The notes beneath the pieces are model-generated. The model was not told the DNA's origin, made no database searches, and saw nothing but the letters and a program-made list of their open reading frames with translations. A program made the position numbers and the translations under genes. A DNA stretch of 64,000 bases from Thiorhodovibrio litoralis (GTDB taxonomy: Bacteria > Pseudomonadota > Gammaproteobacteria > Chromatiales > Chromatiaceae): positions 5,194,501-5,258,500 of the forward strand of contig NZ_CP121473.1 in NCBI RefSeq assembly GCF_033954455.1. Reading direction: 5' to 3'. Shown here piece after piece: positions 7,324 to 39,921 of this stretch (the first letter of the stretch is position 1; each line of letters begins with the position of its first letter).

Positions 7324-8349
7324 TCACTGAAAATACCGCTGGGCAGCGGTGACCAGATCCTCGCGCACCGGGAGATCGCTGGGCGTGATGCTCAGCGCGA
7401 GAAGCACGACCTGCCGCTTAAGCACGTTGCGAAGCTCCATGAACTCGATGGGGCGAGCCGACGGCTCCTGTTCCTCGCGTTGAATGTTCATCGGATCGAG
7501 CCAGAGTGTGACGGGCTCGGTCCACAGCTGACTCGGCGCCTCGCCGAGCACCTCGGTGAGGAACTCGAGATGGCGATGCAGAACATCCTGATCCGCCCCT
7601 AAGGTGTTCAATCGCGCGGAGAGCTTGTCCAGCTCGGTCTGCAGTGCGGCGGGATCCGGATGTTCGGCCTCTGCCGGGGCGAAACTCCAGCCGCCTTGCT
7701 CCAGCGCGCTCAGCTTGCGCCGAAGGATGTCTTGTTGACCCTTGAGCTCCGCGCGTTCCACGCGCATCTCGGCGATTTGGGTCAGCGCCAGGGTAAGCAG
7801 GTGATCAAAGGCGCGGCGCTTCCATTGGCGGCGGCTTTCAGCCTCATCCGCAGTAGGGTCAACCAAGCGGTGGGCGGTGAAGCTCACCGTGACCTGAGGC
7901 ACATCGCGACGCACCTGCTCGCCGACAAGGTCCATGCCGAGGATATTGCGCTCGACCCGTTCGGCCAGCAAGAGCGCGGTGACTTGCTCTGCGCCACGTC
8001 CCCCGGGGCTTTCCAGAAAAGCGCTCAGAGCGGCATCACGACTCAAGATCGTCAGCATCTCACGGGACGATGAGAAAACTGCGTTCAGCCGCGGGTCGGC
8101 GGCATGGTGGCTGGCGCCTGCCACCACGGGTGCAGGTATCGCATCCACCAGCGCAACCACGTGATCAATGGCCTGAATCACCGGCTGGCGCAGTTGCTTG
8201 CGGTACCCTGAAAGCAAGCGCAAGCGCGGATCAGTGCCGTCGATCGCGCGCTCGGTTGCTTGTTCGATGAGCGATTCAGGATAGTGTCCGCGCGCGTCAC
8301 CGCGACTGAAGATCGAGTGGAAAAGCCTCAAGGACCACCTCCTAGCCAT
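7324..8349 (-). CDS. uncharacterised coiled-coil protein
   Basis: I do not recognise this 341-residue protein. It has no signal peptide or membrane segment, so it is probably cytoplasmic. The first two thirds are alpha-helical and rich in charged residues (YRKQLRQPVIQAIDHVVALV, then LLLAERVERNILGMDLVGEQV). A heptad-like segment (QIAEMRVERAELKGQQDILRRKLSALEQ, about residues 205-235) predicts a coiled coil. A second helical pair LQTELDKLSARLNTLG follows. The C-terminus has a more beta-like stretch, PVTLWLDPMNIQ. It could bind a partner or scaffold a membrane complex. The ATG is chosen because a further 40 codons upstream would have to begin at TTG. It lies on the same strand as gltS, with about 165 bases between them. 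Confidence 0.6.
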   Translation of the reverse strand: MARRWSLRLFHSIFSRGDARGHYPESLIEQATERAIDGTDPRLRLLSGYRKQLRQPVIQAIDHVVALVDAIPAPVVAGASHHAADPRLNAVFSSSREMLTILSRDAALSAFLESPGGRGAEQVTALLLAERVERNILGMDLVGEQVRRDVPQVTVSFTAHRLVDPTADEAESRRQWKRRAFDHLLTLALTQIAEMRVERAELKGQQDILRRKLSALEQGGWSFAPAEAEHPDPAALQTELDKLSARLNTLGADQDVLHRHLEFLTEVLGEAPSQLWTEPVTLWLDPMNIQREEQEPSARPIEFMELRNVLKRQVVLLALSITPSDLPVREDLVTAAQRYFQ

Positions 8350-8416
8350 CTTAGGATGATCTGCGGATGATGCGCTCGTTCCTGCAAAAAGTCCAAAGCC
8401 GGCACGCGGCACCGCG

Positions 8417-8644
8417 TTGACCTTAAAGGCGGTGCGCGAGTTGGCGACCGAGGCCATCGCCGCTGGCAAAGAGCCGGCGACACTCTACAACATCGACAAC
8501 CTGGTGCTCTTGTCGCCACCATCATCCTTGAGCAACTGCGCCGATCCGCTCCAGGCTCTCCAGGATACCGGTGCCAAGCTGATCATCACCAACTGCCAGC
8601 CATTCAAGGCTGATTCAGACAGGCGGCCCGCGCGAGCAGTCTGA
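8417..8644 (+). pseudogene. possible remnant of a gene encoding a small alpha/beta protein
   Basis: An open frame reads AVRELATEAIAAGKEPATLYNIDNLVLL...DPLQALQDTGAKLIITNCQPF. Helix-strand alternation and GC-rich third positions suggest the debris of a DsrE-like or similar fold, but there is no good start and the end runs into the 3' end of the Cys-rich gene on the other strand. The family assignment is a guess. Confidence 0.2.
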
Positions 8645-9163
8645 ATTGCATTCGCTGTTGACGGCATCTACAGTTTCGAACTTCTTGCATCCATAGTAAT
8701 CCAGCTGGTCCTTGGATATGGGAAATCGACCACAATTGAAAAACTTCCAAAATACAGACTTATAGGATAGGCATAGATTTGTTGTTTTATCACGAAAACA
8801 ACAGTCGCTGGTCAGAGTACAGCATGCTGAACAACTCCCACAGTTATCTTTCGACGTATTCCAATTTGGGGATACGCGGAAGACGGACTTGTCAGGACTA
8901 TCCATCGGTGGGGCGGAGAGGGGTAGATGCGAGATCAGCAGCGCGCTATCTCCAGCCCAAATGGCTTTTAAGTATGAAAAGGTGTTCACATAAAACTTGT
9001 GATAAAAGCTCCAATACTTCCAAAACCGAAGGTCGTTAAAAAAGAAATAGGATGTAAAGGGTGCTATCACATATAAAAACGCGCCAAACGTAACAAAATT
9101 TACCAGCACAATTACGTATGCAAGCAGTCGAAACAATGACCACTTTAGCTTTTTCAAGAACAT
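8615..9163 (-). CDS. Cys-rich membrane-anchored protein, AT-richer than its surroundings
   Basis: A 182-residue protein. An N-terminal transmembrane segment (LFRLLAYVIVLVNFVTFGAF) is followed by an aromatic-rich amphipathic part and then a cysteine cluster. The cluster is NCGSCSACCTL, DCCF, NLCLSY, FNCGRFP, YGCKKF and two more Cys near the end. The order CxxCxxCC with later single Cys resembles YkgJ-like metal or Fe-S binding clusters, but I would not name a function. Codon use is clearly more A/T-rich than in neighbouring genes, which suggests recent transfer. A ribosome site AGAGGTG lies about 10 bases before the ATG. The last codons overlap the possible remnant on the opposite strand. Confidence 0.65.
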   Translation of the reverse strand: MFLKKLKWSLFRLLAYVIVLVNFVTFGAFLYVIAPFTSYFFFNDLRFWKYWSFYHKFYVNTFSYLKAIWAGDSALLISHLPLSAPPMDSPDKSVFRVSPNWNTSKDNCGSCSACCTLTSDCCFRDKTTNLCLSYKSVFWKFFNCGRFPISKDQLDYYGCKKFETVDAVNSECNSDCSRGPPV

Positions 9164-9478
9164 CTTGCCAACACACCTCTTAACACGTCACGTGCCAATT
9201 AAAATGAGGCACCTGTTTGCAAAAATCACTCTAGCACAGTTCCGACACTCAGGACTGTGGCTTCGAGGCCTGGCACTGGCCATGAGTTTCACGGTCACGA
9301 CCTTTGTCGCAACGGCGCTCGTCCAAGGCTCGCAGCAACATGCGCGCGGCGATTTCGACAGCGAGCTGTCGACCCATGGCGTTGCGGCGAGCGGCTATCC
9401 AGGCGGGACTTTTTCCCGTTAAAATACCTGGCATTGGCAAGCCTCAGCGTCCTATATTTCTCGCGAGATCGCTCCTCA
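9164..9478. other. intergenic region upstream of sensor kinase 1
   Basis: About 315 bases between the divergent Cys-rich gene and sensor kinase 1. The first 70 bases are AT-rich and may hold the promoter of the Cys-rich gene. I see no recognised gene, terminator or repeat in the rest. The 67-bp box found downstream of both kinases is not present here. Confidence 0.4.
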
Positions 9479-33361: not shown

Positions 33362-33757
33362 CTATCCCATTGTCGCGAGCCGGCTCACCGTATCCGGAAA
33401 CTGGGCCGCAAGCCGCAGAAGCTGCCGCGCGGCTCCCGTCGGCTGCGCTCGGCCCTGCTCCCAGTTTTCCAGCGTCCGCTTCGACACTCCCAGCGCGCGG
33501 GCGAACTCCGTCTGCGACAAGCCAGATTGGGCTCGGGCCGCCATCAATTCCCAGCGCGGACCGGTGAGAACTTCGTCCTTTTCCACCGTCCCATCTGCCC
33601 GCTGGATACGGCGACGGACCGTGCCATTCTCCAGCACTTCAAACTCGGTCTTACGCGCCCAGCGCCCTGCCCTCAGATCACGCACGGCTTCGAGGAGTTC
33701 AGCGCCAATGTCGCGCCCCGCGTCGCGAGCGAGCAGTTCTTTTTCAGTTTTCGGCAT
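33362..33757 (-). CDS. antitoxin of a HigBA/RelE-type pair (Xre HTH)
   Basis: A 131-residue protein. The N-terminal half is charged and likely binds the toxin (MPKTEKELLARDAGRDIGAELLEAVRDL). The C-terminal Xre-type helix-turn-helix (AARAQSGLSQTEFARALGVSKRTLENWEQGR) is the usual NadS/HigA form and should repress the operon. Its start overlaps the toxin stop by 14 bases. It lies second in the operon, toxin first, which is the HigBA order. Confidence 0.85.
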   Translation of the reverse strand: MPKTEKELLARDAGRDIGAELLEAVRDLRAGRWARKTEFEVLENGTVRRRIQRADGTVEKDEVLTGPRWELMAARAQSGLSQTEFARALGVSKRTLENWEQGRAQPTGAARQLLRLAAQFPDTVSRLATMG

Positions 33758-34067
33758 GTTCCATCTCCTCGCGTAGCGCCTTGAGCACATGCCCAGGAAT
33801 TGAATCCCGTGCGCTCTTGGCGTAAATCACCAGCATCAGCATTTGCCCAGCGGAGGTGCGCCTGTAGTAGCACACCCGCACACCGCCGGACTTTCCGCTC
33901 CCGGCGCGGCTCCAACGCACCTTGCGCACCCCACCTGAGCCGCGCACTACGTCGCCCGCCTCTGGGTGTTCGCATAGATACTCCTGCAATTCTGTATATT
34001 CCTCGTCGGTCAGGTAATCGGGCAAAAGCGCACAGAAGAGCGGGGACTCAATGAATTGGTAGCGCAT
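33744..34067 (-). CDS. RelE/HigB-type toxin
   Basis: A 107-residue protein of the RelE/ParE superfamily. MRYQFIESPLFCALLPDYLTDEEYTELQEYL is followed by a Gly/Lys/Arg-rich middle (GSGGVRKVRWSRAGSGKSGGVRVCYY) and LMLVIYAKSARDSIPGHVLKALREEM, the normal ending of these toxins. Most relatives cleave mRNA on the ribosome. GAGG 2-3 bases before the ATG is close but acceptable; an upstream ATG at 34085 is the alternative. The two genes are co-transcribed on the minus strand. Confidence 0.85.
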   Translation of the reverse strand: MRYQFIESPLFCALLPDYLTDEEYTELQEYLCEHPEAGDVVRGSGGVRKVRWSRAGSGKSGGVRVCYYRRTSAGQMLMLVIYAKSARDSIPGHVLKALREEMEHAEN

Positions 34068-34085
34068 GACCTCAATTATACGCAT

Positions 34086-34814: not shown

Positions 34815-36335
34815 ATGCCTGAGATTTCCCGATTCGGGCTCGGAAAAGCCTCGCATAACTCAGGGGCCGCTGGTGCCACCTGGTTCGACGTCGACATGGC
34901 CGACGACGCTGATCGCCAATGGCTGATGGGCTTGCAAGAGATTAACGATCAGACCAGGCAGGCGTTATTAGCGCCGGTGCGTTTCAACCATTATGAACAG
35001 GTGCCTGACGGCACCTTGGTAAGTATCAGAACCCCGCGTTCCGAGCAGATTGAGGATATCAGCGAACTCGCCGATTTGAAGTTACTGATCGGCCCGGCCC
35101 GGGCGATGACCGTGCGATCTGGCCCGATCGCCGCCGTGGAGGTGTTACGACGGCACACGTCGGACAGCTCACTGGTAACGGCCGTGGATTTGCTCGGATT
35201 CATGGTCTCGGCGATGACCAAGCGGATGGAAGCTGTCATCTTTGATCTGACCCAAGACATCGATGCCGTCGAGGATGCCCTGCTCGACGGCGGTTCCGCC
35301 CCTCCCCCGCAGGCGCTGAGCGAGCTGCGGCGGCGAATTTTTCGCACCCGACGGCAAGTCAATGCCGCCCAGCAGGTGCTCGCTCCGATGACGACCGACC
35401 CCGCCCTGGTGCTGGATGCCGATGACCGTGAAACCTTGGTCCGGTCCTCAAATTACGTGACCCGCTATTTGCAAGGGTTGGATGAATGCCGCACCCGGGT
35501 GCAGCTGTTGGAGGATCAAATCGATGCGCAACGCTCGGAGACCATGACGCGTTCCAGCCTGAATCTGACCATCGTCGCGACCGTGTTTTTGCCCTTGACC
35601 TTCATCACCGGTCTGCTCGGAATGAACGTCGCGGGCATCCCCGATCAACACAATCCGTTCGGCTTCTGGACGGTGACGGGATTGTCTGTCCTCGTTGCTC
35701 TGCTGGCTTGGGTCTTGCTGCGTCGCGAAATCCATGATCGCCAGCTCGATCAGGCCAGTCGCCCGAAAAAGACACTAGCGCGAGAGCCCAAGACCTTGAC
35801 TCCAGAAAACGTCGAATTGACCCTCCCTCCCCGGCCCAGCGCGGAAACCGGGCATCAAGACAAGTCAGATCAAACAGCAGTGGAAGGACATCACCCGGGT
35901 TTCCGTCGCAAGATTGTCAGGATCTATGGCTTTGCACTGCTGCTTGCGCTTGCTCTGTTCTTTTTTCACCTTGTTATGATCTTCGATGTGGCTGGCGCAA
36001 TCATTGGACGGAAAGCGTGGATGCTGGAGCATTTTGGGCACCATACTGGCAAGACTTTGATCCTTGGCTGTTTCTTTCTGTTGTTCGCGGCCCACCTGGC
36101 AGAATCTGCGGCCTGGGGATTGTTTTTGCGCGGAGAGCGACTTTTGCCAAGCCTGACCGAAGGCGTCTATTTTGCCGCCGCATCCATCACGACGCTGGGC
36201 TTCGGCGATGTCCTGCTGAAATATCCCTGGCGACATATCGGACCACTGATCGCTATCTCCGGAGTGCTGATGTTTGGCTGTTCGACGGCTTTCTTGTTCG
36301 TGATCATGCAAGACGTCTGGGTCGGTCATCTTTAA
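34815..36335 (+). CDS. CorA/ZntB-type cation transporter fused to a two-helix K+ channel pore
   Basis: A 506-residue single open frame with two membrane modules. Residues 20-310 match CorA/ZntB: a soluble alpha/beta domain, a long stalk helix (RSETMTRSSLNLTIVATVFLPLTFITGLLGMN) with the GMN signature at 269-271 followed by VAGIP, and a second helix ending in the basic RREIHDRQ. A polar linker (about 310-362) leads to three hydrophobic segments. Between the last two lies SITTLGFGD (about 457-465), which fits the TxGFG selectivity filter of potassium channels. CorA works as a pentamer and K+ channels as tetramers, so assembly is puzzling. I see no frameshift or stop in the linker. The gene is followed 5 bases later by pqiA. 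Confidence 0.85.
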   Translation: MPEISRFGLGKASHNSGAAGATWFDVDMADDADRQWLMGLQEINDQTRQALLAPVRFNHYEQVPDGTLVSIRTPRSEQIEDISELADLKLLIGPARAMTVRSGPIAAVEVLRRHTSDSSLVTAVDLLGFMVSAMTKRMEAVIFDLTQDIDAVEDALLDGGSAPPPQALSELRRRIFRTRRQVNAAQQVLAPMTTDPALVLDADDRETLVRSSNYVTRYLQGLDECRTRVQLLEDQIDAQRSETMTRSSLNLTIVATVFLPLTFITGLLGMNVAGIPDQHNPFGFWTVTGLSVLVALLAWVLLRREIHDRQLDQASRPKKTLAREPKTLTPENVELTLPPRPSAETGHQDKSDQTAVEGHHPGFRRKIVRIYGFALLLALALFFFHLVMIFDVAGAIIGRKAWMLEHFGHHTGKTLILGCFFLLFAAHLAESAAWGLFLRGERLLPSLTEGVYFAAASITTLGFGDVLLKYPWRHIGPLIAISGVLMFGCSTAFLFVIMQDVWVGHL

Positions 36336-36340
36336 CTTGC

Positions 36341-36991
36341 ATGCAAACCCTGGCCTGTCCCGATTGTGATCTGCTGCAGAGCGTCCCGGACCTCCCACCC
36401 GGAGGCAAGGCGAGCTGCGCGCGCTGCGGCCATGCGCTGGCAACCGGCACCGCCGGCCCGATCGGCCGACCGCTGGCGCTGACCATCGCCGCGCTCTTTT
36501 TGTTGATCATTGCCAATATCGACCCGCTGATGGATCTTTCAGCCGTGGGTCGCCACGCAAGCACCACCATCATCGGCGGTGCTTATCAGATGTGGCTTGA
36601 GGGCCAACAGGCGACGGCGGTTGTCGTCGGCTTCTGCGCGGTAGTCGCCCCGGCAGGCTATATTCTGTTCATGTTGGTCGTTTTGCTTGGCGCCGGGCGA
36701 ACGCCAGTGCCGCGCTGGGTCGGGGAGATGCTGCGCTGGGCCGATCGCATGCGGCCCTGGTCCATGGTCGAGGTGATGATGCTTGGCATCCTGGTGGCCT
36801 TGATTAAGATCGCGGACCTGGCCAAGGTTGAGCCCGGCATCGGTATGGCCGCGGTGGGCGTTTTGATGCTGCTGATCCCCGCCATTGAGGTCAATTTCGA
36901 CCCCCATGCGATCTGGCATCGGGTCACCTGGGTCGAGCCGAAGTCATCACCACCGATCGCCGACGATTCGGCGCCTGGGACCTCGTCCTGA
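36341..36991 (+). CDS. pqiA: PqiA-type membrane protein, first half/copy
   Basis: A 216-residue PqiA/LetA-family inner-membrane protein. The N-terminal zinc ribbon (CPDCDLL...CARCGHAL) is followed by four hydrophobic segments with the family stretch RPWSMVEVMMLGILVALIKIADLAKVEPG. PqiA partners with the MCE protein PqiB in moving lipids between the membranes. In E. coli PqiA is one protein of about 417 residues with two such halves; here the halves are separate genes, overlapping by 1 base. It starts 5 bases after the CorA-channel fusion. Confidence 0.9.
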   Translation: MQTLACPDCDLLQSVPDLPPGGKASCARCGHALATGTAGPIGRPLALTIAALFLLIIANIDPLMDLSAVGRHASTTIIGGAYQMWLEGQQATAVVVGFCAVVAPAGYILFMLVVLLGAGRTPVPRWVGEMLRWADRMRPWSMVEVMMLGILVALIKIADLAKVEPGIGMAAVGVLMLLIPAIEVNFDPHAIWHRVTWVEPKSSPPIADDSAPGTSS

Positions 36992-37629
36992 TGGCTGCTG
37001 CGCTGACCGCCGCGCAAGCCGGCTTGATCGGCTGCGAGCATTGCGGTTTGCTGGTACGGGCCGCAAGTGCCGACGAGCCGGGCCATTGCCCGCGTTGCGG
37101 CAGCCCGCTTGAGTCGCGGCGGCGGCAGTCCATTGAGCGCACCTGGGCGCTGGTGATCGCGGCGGCAATCTGCTATATCCCCGCCAACCTGCTGCCAGTG
37201 CTCGGGACCACCACGCTCGGTTCCACCGAGTACGACACCATCATGGGCGGCGTGGTTTTCCTCTACACTTCCGGCTCTTGGCCGCTGGCGCTGATCGTGC
37301 TGATCGCGAGCGTGATGGTGCCCCTCGGCAAGCTGATCGCGCTCGGTTATTTGCTCATCTCCGTGCAACGACGCTCGTCGAGCAGCAATCGAGAGCGGAC
37401 CCGACTCTACCGCATGGTCGAATTTATCGGACGTTGGTCGATGCTGGATGTCTTCGTCGACACCTTTACCGTGGCCCTGGTGCAGCTCTCGCCGCTGATG
37501 GCGGTGAGTCCCGGCCCCGGGGTCATGTTTTTTGCCGCTGTCGTCGTGCTGACCATGATTGCGGCCACCACCTTTGACCCCCGCCTGATCTGGGACGCGG
37601 GCGGCGAACCGGAGTCCCGAATTGGCTGA
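36991..37629 (+). CDS. pqiA: PqiA-type membrane protein, second half/copy
   Basis: A 212-residue protein similar to the preceding one. The zinc ribbon is CEHCGLL...CPRCGSPL. Four transmembrane segments follow, with CYIPANLLPVLGTTTLGS and RWSMLDVFVDTFTVALVQL, matching the C-terminal half of PqiA/LetA. The two half-size proteins presumably join in the membrane as a heterodimer. It overlaps pqiB by 8 bases. Confidence 0.9.
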   Translation: MAAALTAAQAGLIGCEHCGLLVRAASADEPGHCPRCGSPLESRRRQSIERTWALVIAAAICYIPANLLPVLGTTTLGSTEYDTIMGGVVFLYTSGSWPLALIVLIASVMVPLGKLIALGYLLISVQRRSSSSNRERTRLYRMVEFIGRWSMLDVFVDTFTVALVQLSPLMAVSPGPGVMFFAAVVVLTMIAATTFDPRLIWDAGGEPESRIG

Positions 37630-39295
37630 CGCCCTCGACAGCAATACCTTGCCGCAAGCTACACTAACACCGCCCCGGCGTTCGCGGATCTCCGCCATCT
37701 GGCTGATTCCGTTGCTTGCCGCCGCGGTCGCTATCGGCATCGCGGTCAACCGTATCCTGAATGAAGGCCCGACCATCTCCATCCTGTTTCAATCCGCCGA
37801 GGGGGTCGAGGCCAACAAGACCATCATCAAGTACAAGGATGTCAAGATCGGCCAGGTGACGGCGGTGGAGCTTCACCAGAACTACTCCAAGGTTATGGTC
37901 ACCGCGAGAATCGACAAGCACGCCGAGGGGCTGATGGTCGAGGACGCCAAGTTCTGGGTGGTGCAGCCGCAAGTCACCCTGAGCGGCGTCTCCGGGCTGA
38001 GTACGCTCTTGTCCGGCAACTACATCGGCTTTGAGATGGGCAAGTCCTCAAAGCCTCAGCGCCATTTCACCGGCCTCAAGGTGGCGCCTGTCATCCCCAT
38101 CGACCAGCCCGGCCGCGAGTTTGAGCTGACTGCCTCCGATCTCGGCTCGGTCAGCGTCGGCTCGCCGCTGTATTTTCGTCGCCTTCAGGTCGGCCAGGTG
38201 ATGACCTACCAGCTCGCCCCGGACGGCAACTCCGTCTCGATCAGCGTCTTCGTTAACGCCCCCTTCGATCACTTTGTCAGCGCCCAGACGCGCTTTTGGA
38301 ACGCCAGCGGTGTCGATGTCTCACTGGGCGATGGCGGTTTAGACGTGCGCACCCAGTCGCTGGTGTCGCTGCTTGTCGGCGGCATTGCCTTTGCGACGCC
38401 AAGCTCCGCCGTCGAGCCCGCACCCGCAACGGCCGATACCACCTTCGTGCTCTATGCTGATCGCGCTACCGCGATGAAGCAGCCGGAGACCATCTCGCGT
38501 CATTACGTCCTTTACTTCACGGAATCATTGCGCGGGTTGACTGTAGGAGCACCGGTGACCCTGTTCGGACTGCCGGCGGGCGAGGTGGCCGACGTGGGCA
38601 TCGATATCGATCCGGCGACAACGGAGGTTCGGGGTCGGGTGGAAATTGTCGCCTATCCGGAGCGGCTCGTGTCTGATATGCATACAGAGCAGTCGTCGAG
38701 TGCGCAAGCGATGGTGCAGAACCCCGAACAAAGTCATGCGTTCTTTCAGCGCCTGGTGATGGACCGGGGGCTGCGTGCCCAACTGCGCAGTGGCAGCCTG
38801 CTGACCGGCCAGTTGTTCGTGGCCTTCGATTTCTTTCCCGACGCGCCCAAGGCGGAAGTCGACTGGGGTCCGAAGATGCCTGTCATCCCGACCGTCCCGG
38901 GCACGGTGACGAACCTGGAGGACAAGGTCTCGGACATTCTCGCCAAGGTGGACAAAATCCCCTTTGAAACCATCGGCAGCGAGGTCGCGCAGACTCTGCT
39001 GGCCTTGAACGAAGCGATTAAGGACATCGACAAGGCCGTGAACCGCATCGACAAGGGCGTCATCCCTGAGCTCAAGCCAGCGATCTCTGCGGTTCGCAGC
39101 GCCATGATGTCCGCGGATCGGGTGCTGAAAAATACCGACGCGACCTTACTCGGCAAGGATGCGCCTGGACAGCTGGAACTGCGTGACGCCTTGCAGGAGG
39201 TCAGTCGTGCGGCACGCTCCTTGCGCGTACTCACGGACTATCTCGAACGCAATCCGTCATCCTTGATTCGCGGCAAAAATGGAGAGAAACCCTGA
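37622..39295 (+). CDS. pqiB: PqiB, MCE-domain intermembrane lipid transport protein
   Basis: A 557-residue protein. One N-terminal transmembrane helix (SAIWLIPLLAAAVAIGIAVN) anchors it to the inner membrane. Three MCE (MlaD-like) domains follow: GPTISILFQSAEGVEANKTIIKYKDVKIGQV, FELTASDLGSVSVGSPLYFRRLQVGQV and HYVLYFTESLRGLTVGAPVTLFGLPAGEV. The C-terminal helical region (after about 440) forms the needle in the E. coli protein, which spans the periplasm as a hexameric tube. It starts at TTG and overlaps both neighbours, indicating tight coupling. Confidence 0.92.
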   Translation: MADALDSNTLPQATLTPPRRSRISAIWLIPLLAAAVAIGIAVNRILNEGPTISILFQSAEGVEANKTIIKYKDVKIGQVTAVELHQNYSKVMVTARIDKHAEGLMVEDAKFWVVQPQVTLSGVSGLSTLLSGNYIGFEMGKSSKPQRHFTGLKVAPVIPIDQPGREFELTASDLGSVSVGSPLYFRRLQVGQVMTYQLAPDGNSVSISVFVNAPFDHFVSAQTRFWNASGVDVSLGDGGLDVRTQSLVSLLVGGIAFATPSSAVEPAPATADTTFVLYADRATAMKQPETISRHYVLYFTESLRGLTVGAPVTLFGLPAGEVADVGIDIDPATTEVRGRVEIVAYPERLVSDMHTEQSSSAQAMVQNPEQSHAFFQRLVMDRGLRAQLRSGSLLTGQLFVAFDFFPDAPKAEVDWGPKMPVIPTVPGTVTNLEDKVSDILAKVDKIPFETIGSEVAQTLLALNEAIKDIDKAVNRIDKGVIPELKPAISAVRSAMMSADRVLKNTDATLLGKDAPGQLELRDALQEVSRAARSLRVLTDYLERNPSSLIRGKNGEKP

Positions 39296-39921
39296 TGGCT
39301 CCACAGATCCGCTCAGGCCTCAGTATCCCCCCCAGTTTTAGCCTGCTTATCTGTGCCCTTGCGGCCGTGCTGGCCGGCTGCGCCTCGCCGGCGGCGCGCT
39401 TCTACACACTGAGCCCCTCGACGAACAGCGTCGCGCCCGCCTCCAGCCTGTCGATCTCCGTCGGTCCGGTGAGCGTGCCGGCAGCGGTCGACCGCCCGGA
39501 GATCGTCATCACCGCAGGTCCGAATCAGGTTCGCCTGGAGGAATTCGACCGCTGGGCCTCGCCGCTGAAGGACGAGATCTCGCGCACCGTTGCGGAGAAC
39601 CTGGTTGCCCTGTTAGGAACGTCGCGGGTCATCCAAGCATTAGGGGCGTCGAGCGCTGATGTCGACTATCGCGTCTCCATCGAGGTGCGGCGGTTCGACT
39701 CGACGCCCGGCGACGCCGCTACGCTCGATGCGGTCTGGACCCTGCGTCGCCCCGGAGACGGCAAGTCAATGATAGGGCGGACCAGCACGCGCGAGCCTGT
39801 TCGGGAGCCTGTTCGGGAGCCTGTTCAGGAGCAGGGCTACGACGGACTCGCTGCCGCCCACAGCCGCGCGCTGGCGCGACTCAGCCAGGACATCGCAGAC
39901 GCGGTGCGTGCGCAACACTGA
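39295..39921 (+). CDS. pqiC: PqiC-type outer-membrane lipoprotein
   Basis: A 208-residue lipoprotein of the ABC-type transport auxiliary/DUF330 family. Lipobox VLAGC lies near residue 27. It is followed by FYTLSPS, ISVGPVSVPAAVDRPEIV and FDRWASPLKDEISRTVAENL, the typical family sequence. PqiC binds the tip of PqiB at the outer membrane. Near residue 170 an in-frame 12-bp repeat inserts REPVREPVREPVQE, which relatives are not expected to have. The start overlaps the pqiB stop by 1 base. Confidence 0.88.
   Translation: MAPQIRSGLSIPPSFSLLICALAAVLAGCASPAARFYTLSPSTNSVAPASSLSISVGPVSVPAAVDRPEIVITAGPNQVRLEEFDRWASPLKDEISRTVAENLVALLGTSRVIQALGASSADVDYRVSIEVRRFDSTPGDAATLDAVWTLRRPGDGKSMIGRTSTREPVREPVREPVQEQGYDGLAAAHSRALARLSQDIADAVRAQH
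39793..39828 (+). repeat. in-frame 12-bp tandem repeat in pqiC
   Basis: GAGCCTGTTCGG twice, then GAGCCTGTTCAG, coding Glu-Pro-Val-Arg/Gln. Its unit length matches the repeat in the MscS gene. It lies in a likely surface loop. Confidence 0.9.

Follow-up and report, generated by a model that had tools for sequence, protein, structure and literature searches.

A conserved single-gene fusion of a CorA/ZntB-type transporter with a small three-helix K+ channel in Chromatiaceae, with a possibly inverted pore

The window analysed here is a stretch of 64,000 nucleotides from Thiorhodovibrio litoralis (contig NZ_CP121473.1, positions 5,194,501 to 5,258,500), whose genome consists of a single 5.47 Mb contig. 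It contains an open frame of 506 codons (Table 1), in which an initial reading of the letters and their open frames (hereafter the sequence-only reading) had recognized a CorA/ZntB transporter joined to a K+-channel pore. The Pfam CorA profile aligns with the N-terminal module over nearly its whole length (profile positions 3-292 of 292, E 7.2e-48, 163.8 bits for a cut-off of 27), and the GMN signature is followed by VAGIP (residues 272-276), so that both the fold and the motifs first proposed are borne out. The C-terminal part, which had been singled out for its SITTLGFGD motif (residues 457-465), matches Ion_trans_2 (PF07885) over residues 444-498 (profile positions 22-77 of 79, E 2.5e-7, 30.9 bits for a cut-off of 22.5), and its predicted model shows three long helices and a pore helix after residue 360. 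The only other yield of the Pfam scan for this protein was a sub-threshold holin match. The fusion is the single CorA-family match of the genome and one of its four Ion_trans_2 matches.

Table 1. Features of the fusion gene and of the adjoining operon, in positions of the window
Feature	Positions	Strand	Basis
CorA-K+-channel fusion gene, 506 aa	34815..36335	+	open frame, homologues in other genomes
CorA/ZntB-type module, residues 20-304	34872..35726	+	Pfam PF01544; fold matches CmaX 7nh9 (Z 22.2), ZntB 5n9y (Z 20.1)
GMN signature, residues 269-271	35619..35627	+	sequence
Hydrophilic linker, about residues 305-366	35727..35912	+	321-329 and 331-358 predicted disordered, pLDDT <50
TM-A, about residues 367-392, first channel helix, RRK..R tail before it	35913..35990	+	hydropathy, predicted model
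TM-B (M1-like), about residues 413-438, conserved H427 and E430	36051..36128	+	predicted model, alignment
Pore helix and filter loop, residues 447-465	36153..36209	+	predicted model, structure comparison
Selectivity filter T-L-G-F-G, residues 460-464	36192..36206	+	sequence
TM-C (M2-like), residues 472-505	36228..36329	+	predicted model, structure comparison
pqiA-pqiA-pqiB-pqiC lipid-transport operon, directly downstream	36341..39921	+	Pfam, synteny

Searches of the family Chromatiaceae (purple sulfur bacteria) identified full-length fusions in six of 210 genomes, assigned to four genera by the search tool. In addition to the window genome (G000), carriers include the sister genome G001 (5.42 Mb), Rhabdochromatium marinum DSM 5261, Thiorhodococcus mannitoliphagus DSM 18266, and Thiocystis violacea DSM 208. 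A search at the order level covered the same number of genomes (210) and returned the same matches. At E 1e-20, no fusion was detected in the other 368 genomes of a class-wide sample of 369, and G002, the third genome of the genus, yielded no match. The scan of named genomes relied on two N-terminal patterns only, so that diverged fusions would be missed by it. No description of a CorA-K+-channel fusion was found in the open-licence literature among the matches listed (in which 'CorA' also matches 'coral'). The fusion is rare within the genomes searched, and the two families that it combines were already known.

A sequencing or assembly error merging two neighbouring genes, which the sequence-only reading had named as a way in which its proposal could fail, was considered and rejected. 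The homologues of other genera are likewise fused, six genomes in all sharing the uninterrupted frame. The two non-coding frames of the linker both contain stops in five of the six fusions, and one of them does in the sixth. A portion of the Thiorhodovibrio genome paper gives a PacBio coverage of more than 500x for three genomes (PMC10609205). The probability that we leave to such an error is negligible. The linker of the window protein is free of stops and frame changes, as had been noted, and both modules are read in one frame across genera. The single-gene fusion of a CorA/ZntB-type transporter with a small three-helix K+ channel is certainly real and conserved.

Structure predictions, all of monomers, complement these profile matches. 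Built on 59 aligned sequences, the full-length model (mean pLDDT 84.2, pTM 0.61) displays the cytosolic funnel domain and the two-helix membrane fold of CorA/ZntB, with the stalk and TM1 modelled at residues 202-270 and TM2 at residues 281-315, followed by the disordered linker. Among PDB structures, residues 1 to 304-308 match CmaX and ZntB best (Table 1), followed by CorA (4ev6, Z 19.6). In the channel part, helices are modelled at residues 361-398 (TM-A), 400-440 (TM-B), 447-460 (pore helix), and 472-505 (TM-C). Modelled alone, this part reaches a pLDDT of 89.8, and its last hundred or so residues match KirBac3.1 (2wlo, Z 9.2, 2.3 A over 89 residues), further K+ channels (SthK, Kv, and GsuK among them) matching at Z 8.4-9.3. 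As an unrelated helical design ranks amid these channels at Z 9.1, a Z near 9 is not decisive by itself for a K+-channel fold, and a Foldseek comparison of the channel model with the PDB returned no match below E 0.001 (best 7.3e-3). A profile search with the channel part placed Kv1.2 first (E 3e-13) and Shaker next. The other failure foreseen by the sequence-only reading, namely that the C-terminal 145 residues would match no channel domain, is contradicted by the Pfam and profile matches and, more weakly, by the fold match.

CmaX and ZntB, which belong to the CorA 2-TM-GxN family, share with the fusion the whole N-terminal fold and the GMN loop. Unlike the fusion, they are matched through PDB chains of 327 residues, too short to include a channel part as well. 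The N-terminal module scores far below the cut-offs of both the ZntB equivalog NF007092 (124.9 bits for a cut-off of 292) and the CorA equivalog TIGR00383 (75 bits for a cut-off of 200.75). The channel part, for its part, shares TM-A, a TM-B with H..E, the pore helix, the T-x-G-[YF]-G-D filter, and TM-C with a three-helix bacterial channel family (profile A4, which matches at E 1e-6 in 249 of 398 genomes of the phylum, other K+ channels included). It differs from that family by an opposite charge bias, and no CorA part was noticed in the family members that were read. The TM-A histidine and the TM-B H-x-x-E are common in the broad family (each histidine in 73 of 113 channels, the glutamate in 63 of 113) and invariant in the 17 members of the Chromatiaceae subfamily to which the fused channels belong; they are perhaps a metal or proton site.

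Both halves of the fusion also exist as separate genes. Four genomes contain a close unfused relative of the CorA half (58-63% identity) that ends where the linker would begin, and a fifth unfused copy, in G198, is truncated. The GMN signature is kept in all six fusions as well as in the four complete unfused CorAs. Unfused relatives of the channel half (51-57% identical) were identified in 11 genomes, in two of which (G163 and G025) the channel adjoins an MscK-type gene. When the six fusion genomes are left out, the unfused subfamily channel occurs in three of the four genomes with an unfused CorA vs 10 of 204 genomes overall (Fisher p 3e-4, kinship uncorrected). In the channel tree, fused rows form one clade in 64% of bootstrap trees, which is compatible with a single fusion event. 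In the CorA tree, from which the truncated G198 copy and the distant L049, L054, L016, and L012 (no ORF fitting the pattern) were left out, they do so in 8% of bootstrap trees, leaving a single event unresolved there. The large tree groups the fused rows with the G036 channel (96/89). The G036 locus (L079, 7693-8500) has an intact unfused channel immediately preceded, on the other strand, by some 60 residues left over from a CorA C-terminus, and a nearby ORF resembles what we take, from its sequence, to be an IS66-type transposase fragment. This locus may be a fusion broken up by rearrangement.

Selection on the different parts of the protein was estimated by simple Nei-Gojobori counts on short stretches, over the 15 pairs among the six fusions. 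dN/dS ranges from 0.05 to 0.31 for the CorA part and from 0.18 to 0.42 for the channel part. In the G000-G006 pair, it is 0.11 for the CorA part, 0.87 for the linker (residues 310-362), and 0.24 for the channel part. Both modules are under purifying selection, which is much weaker on the linker. In the 14 pairs other than G000-G001, linkers are 25-60% identical, with dN/dS of 0.31-1.26, and they are still open. That the linker stays open despite such drift of its letters indicates that the reading frame is maintained.

This maintenance bears on the possibility that the two halves are made jointly and act separately, either because a protease cleaves the linker or because the channel part is also started internally. 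A disordered and little constrained linker would suit such a scheme, as would the occurrence of the halves as separate genes in relatives and the presence of both in three of the four genomes with an unfused CorA; in addition, each linker contains one to five possible internal start codons. However, none of these codons stands out (they were listed, not aligned or scored), and cleavage would leave unexplained why the frame is retained across a large linker divergence. We therefore consider separate action of the halves quite improbable.

In the window, five bases lie between the stop codon of the fusion and 36341, the likely ATG at which the first PqiA gene starts, in agreement with the position ahead of an envelope lipid-transport operon that had been described from the sequence. 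In seven of the 10 genomes with this CorA gene, fused or unfused, Pqi genes are found no more than about 3 kb away from it (G000, G223, G225, G237, G163, G195, and G194; Pqi neighbourhood loci are window 36341-39921, L073-L078, and L024), G001, G006, and G025 having none within that distance. Between pqiB and the fusion, no pqiC match was detected in G223 and G225. In G001 (L070, 7035-12042), the fusion and an AsmA-like gene are adjacent, and no Pqi gene was found between them. On the other side of the fusion, the window contains an MscK-type gene 1.5 kb upstream. Between the two, at 33362-34085 on the reverse strand, are a helix-turn-helix gene and a RelE-like gene (RelE below the Pfam cut-off), which look like a toxin-antitoxin pair. 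The small lipoprotein encoded upstream of the fusion had no match in the Pfam scan.

The T-x-G-[YF]-G filter is intact in five of the six fusions. In the sixth, that of R. marinum (G006; L071, fusion at 7826-9343, draft genome), the filter reads TMLGCDG for TTLGFGD via four point substitutions that leave the frame unchanged, which could be a real loss or a sequence error. A broken filter within a kept frame implies that selectivity can be lost while the fusion persists. Among unfused members of the subfamily, nine of 11 filters are TALGYGD or TGLGYGD, and threonine comes first in 95 of the 113 broad-family channels.

These variations would be expected if the channel module were non-conducting and served as a domain that, embedded in the membrane, regulates the CorA transporter or mediates its oligomerisation. 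The R. marinum channel part gives no Ion_trans_2 match at E 0.001, the first filter threonine is replaced by A or G in the nine unfused members just mentioned, and dN/dS computed over the 25 residues that make up the pore helix and filter reaches high values in some pairs (0.67 for G000 vs G225 and 1.0 for G000 vs G223, with few changes). However, the intact filter of the other five fusions and the purifying selection acting on the channel part overall argue against a module that no longer conducts, and we judge it unlikely.

The orientation of the channel module in the membrane is a sharper puzzle than its symmetry, and one that the sequence-only reading had not raised. In CorA structures, the tail that follows TM2 is cytosolic. 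CorA-family proteins are described, in a part of PMC6972854, as spanning the membrane with two helices and having a large domain in the cytoplasm. The charges of the CorA part of the fusion fit the usual topology, with LRREIHDR after TM2 and a GMN loop devoid of K and R. Provided that CorA keeps its known topology, TM-A of the fusion starts in the cytosol, because this is where the CorA part ends. TM-A would then run from inside to outside and TM-B from outside to inside, so that the filter loop would face the cytosol, the reverse of its placement in ordinary K+ channels.

Charge counts in the channel modules are relevant to this point. In the broad three-helix family, counts were made on 113 of 116 rows (L204 and L226 were dropped for lack of a pattern-fitting filter, and L099 for a doubtful frame), which are mostly top-scoring matches rather than a random sample, with starts set by rule (near TM-A, the ATG lying furthest upstream was taken, and GTG or TTG where there was no ATG), a choice that favours longer tails. 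The summed K+R bias is normal (>0) in 111 of these 113 rows and 0 in the other two; by the charge rule, this family would thus have the normal K+-channel orientation, with TM-A N-out. In the Chromatiaceae subfamily, the bias is reversed in 15 of 17 rows and neutral in two. All six fused rows are reversed (-4 to -6), while unfused rows are below 0 in nine of 11 cases and at 0 in two, six of them ranging from -2 to 0. Given the positive-inside rule, this reversal points to an inverted pore in the subfamily. All subfamily members form one clade, set apart by a single long branch (100/100, length 1.89), so that the charge reversal is one evolutionary event, which weakens the case for inversion. 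It also counts against inversion that, with TM-A N-out by charge in the broad family, the whole module would have had to flip.

The contrast holds when loop borders are moved by three residues, 108 or 109 of the 113 broad rows being positive and one negative, vs no positive row in the subfamily. When the N-terminal tail is removed, unfused members become ambiguous (mean +0.8) and the fused ones alone remain reversed (mean -1.5), the dependence of the unfused members on this tail being a further weak point of the argument. This tail has at most 10 residues in 98 of the 113 broad rows and lacks K/R in 97, vs a mean of 3.6 K/R in the subfamily. The loop between TM-A and TM-B averages 4.2 K/R in the broad family, vs 2.5 K/R and 2.4 D/E in the subfamily. 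Acidic residues outnumber basic ones between TM-B and the pore in 105 of 113 broad rows vs none of the 17 subfamily rows, and the C-terminal tail averages 2.0 vs 0.4 K/R, while K/R in the loop after the filter are no different (1.29 vs 1.25). A section of a review places dual-topology candidates at biases of -2 to +1 and oppositely inserted partners at 6-7 or -6 to -7 (PMC3962082). Measured against these ranges, the fused rows are near the opposite-partner values, and six of the 11 unfused rows are inside the dual-topology range, which speaks against inversion.

The same data must be weighed against a fusion that is real and whose pore is normally oriented, TM-A being peripheral or re-entrant and TM-B running from inside to outside. 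Such an arrangement would agree with the alignment of TM-B, the pore helix, and TM-C with ordinary K+ channels and with the normal bias of nearly all relatives in the broad family, and KcsA likewise has three positive charges near its pore loop. However, TM-A is predicted with confidence as a hydrophobic helix (block pLDDT 91-97, hydropathy 2.1) that would cross the membrane in the broad family by the same charge rule, and the charge shift extends to the loop between TM-B and the pore and to the C-terminal tail. We hold a normally oriented pore to be somewhat unlikely.

In GluR0, a prokaryotic glutamate receptor with a K+-channel pore, as in ionotropic glutamate receptors, ligand-binding domains are arranged around the pore. 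If the pore of the fusion is inverted, it would share with GluR0 an orientation opposite to that of other K+ channels. The excerpt of PMC13099474 used here reports that the orientation of GluR0 was tested by PhoA fusions and that some PhoA activities, including those of both cytoplasmic sites, were not statistically significant (PMC13099474). The same excerpt describes soluble regions on both sides of the GluR0 pore and mentions no CorA (PMC13099474), whereas the fusion has no such soluble domain by Pfam; in particular, no ligand-binding domain of the GluR0 type was detected by Pfam in the window protein. GluR0 was the only K+-selective channel of opposite orientation found in the open-licence literature among the matches listed. 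It is possible, if short of probable, that a Chromatiaceae K+-channel lineage became inverted independently of GluR0, letting one of its branches join the cytosolic tail of CorA to form one polypeptide that transports divalent cations and carries a K+ counter-ion pore of its own.

The explanation that we tentatively favour as a whole combines a real and conserved fusion, an inverted channel, divalent import with a tethered K+ counter-ion pore, and tetramers made possible by the linker. The channel part would be inserted upside down, with a cytosolic N-terminus, a filter loop entering from the cytosol, and a periplasmic C-terminus. The CorA part would import divalent cations (Mg2+, Zn2+, or similar), and K+ would leave through the tethered pore, balancing electrogenic uptake and holding the membrane potential. 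Owing to their long and flexible linkers, channel parts might assemble as tetramers, either within one CorA pentamer or across several. The mismatch between pentamer and tetramer, in which the sequence-only reading saw a symmetry problem, is a real question but not a contradiction: the spacer from the end of TM2 to the core of TM-A is 68-81 residues long and partly disordered, and could reach between subunits, so that five-fold and four-fold parts need not clash. The coupled divalent/potassium flux, or the conversion of one module into a sensor, that the same reading had suggested would be possible roles. According to a part of PMC6972854, CorA uptake is driven by the membrane potential, whereas ZntB uptake is proton-stimulated and not enhanced by it (PMC6972854). 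The behaviour of CorA lends the counter-ion idea indirect support, but as the nearest folds are those of CmaX and ZntB, that of ZntB weakens it.

With a divalent transporter expected to be pentameric and a K+ pore expected to be tetrameric joined in nature, this protein would offer a ready test of charge compensation in metal uptake. If its pore is inverted, it would represent, after GluR0, the second K+ channel whose orientation was independently reversed by evolution. The comparison would then be an unusually clean one, with more than 100 relatives of normal bias, one flipped branch, and a tether that fixes the orientation.
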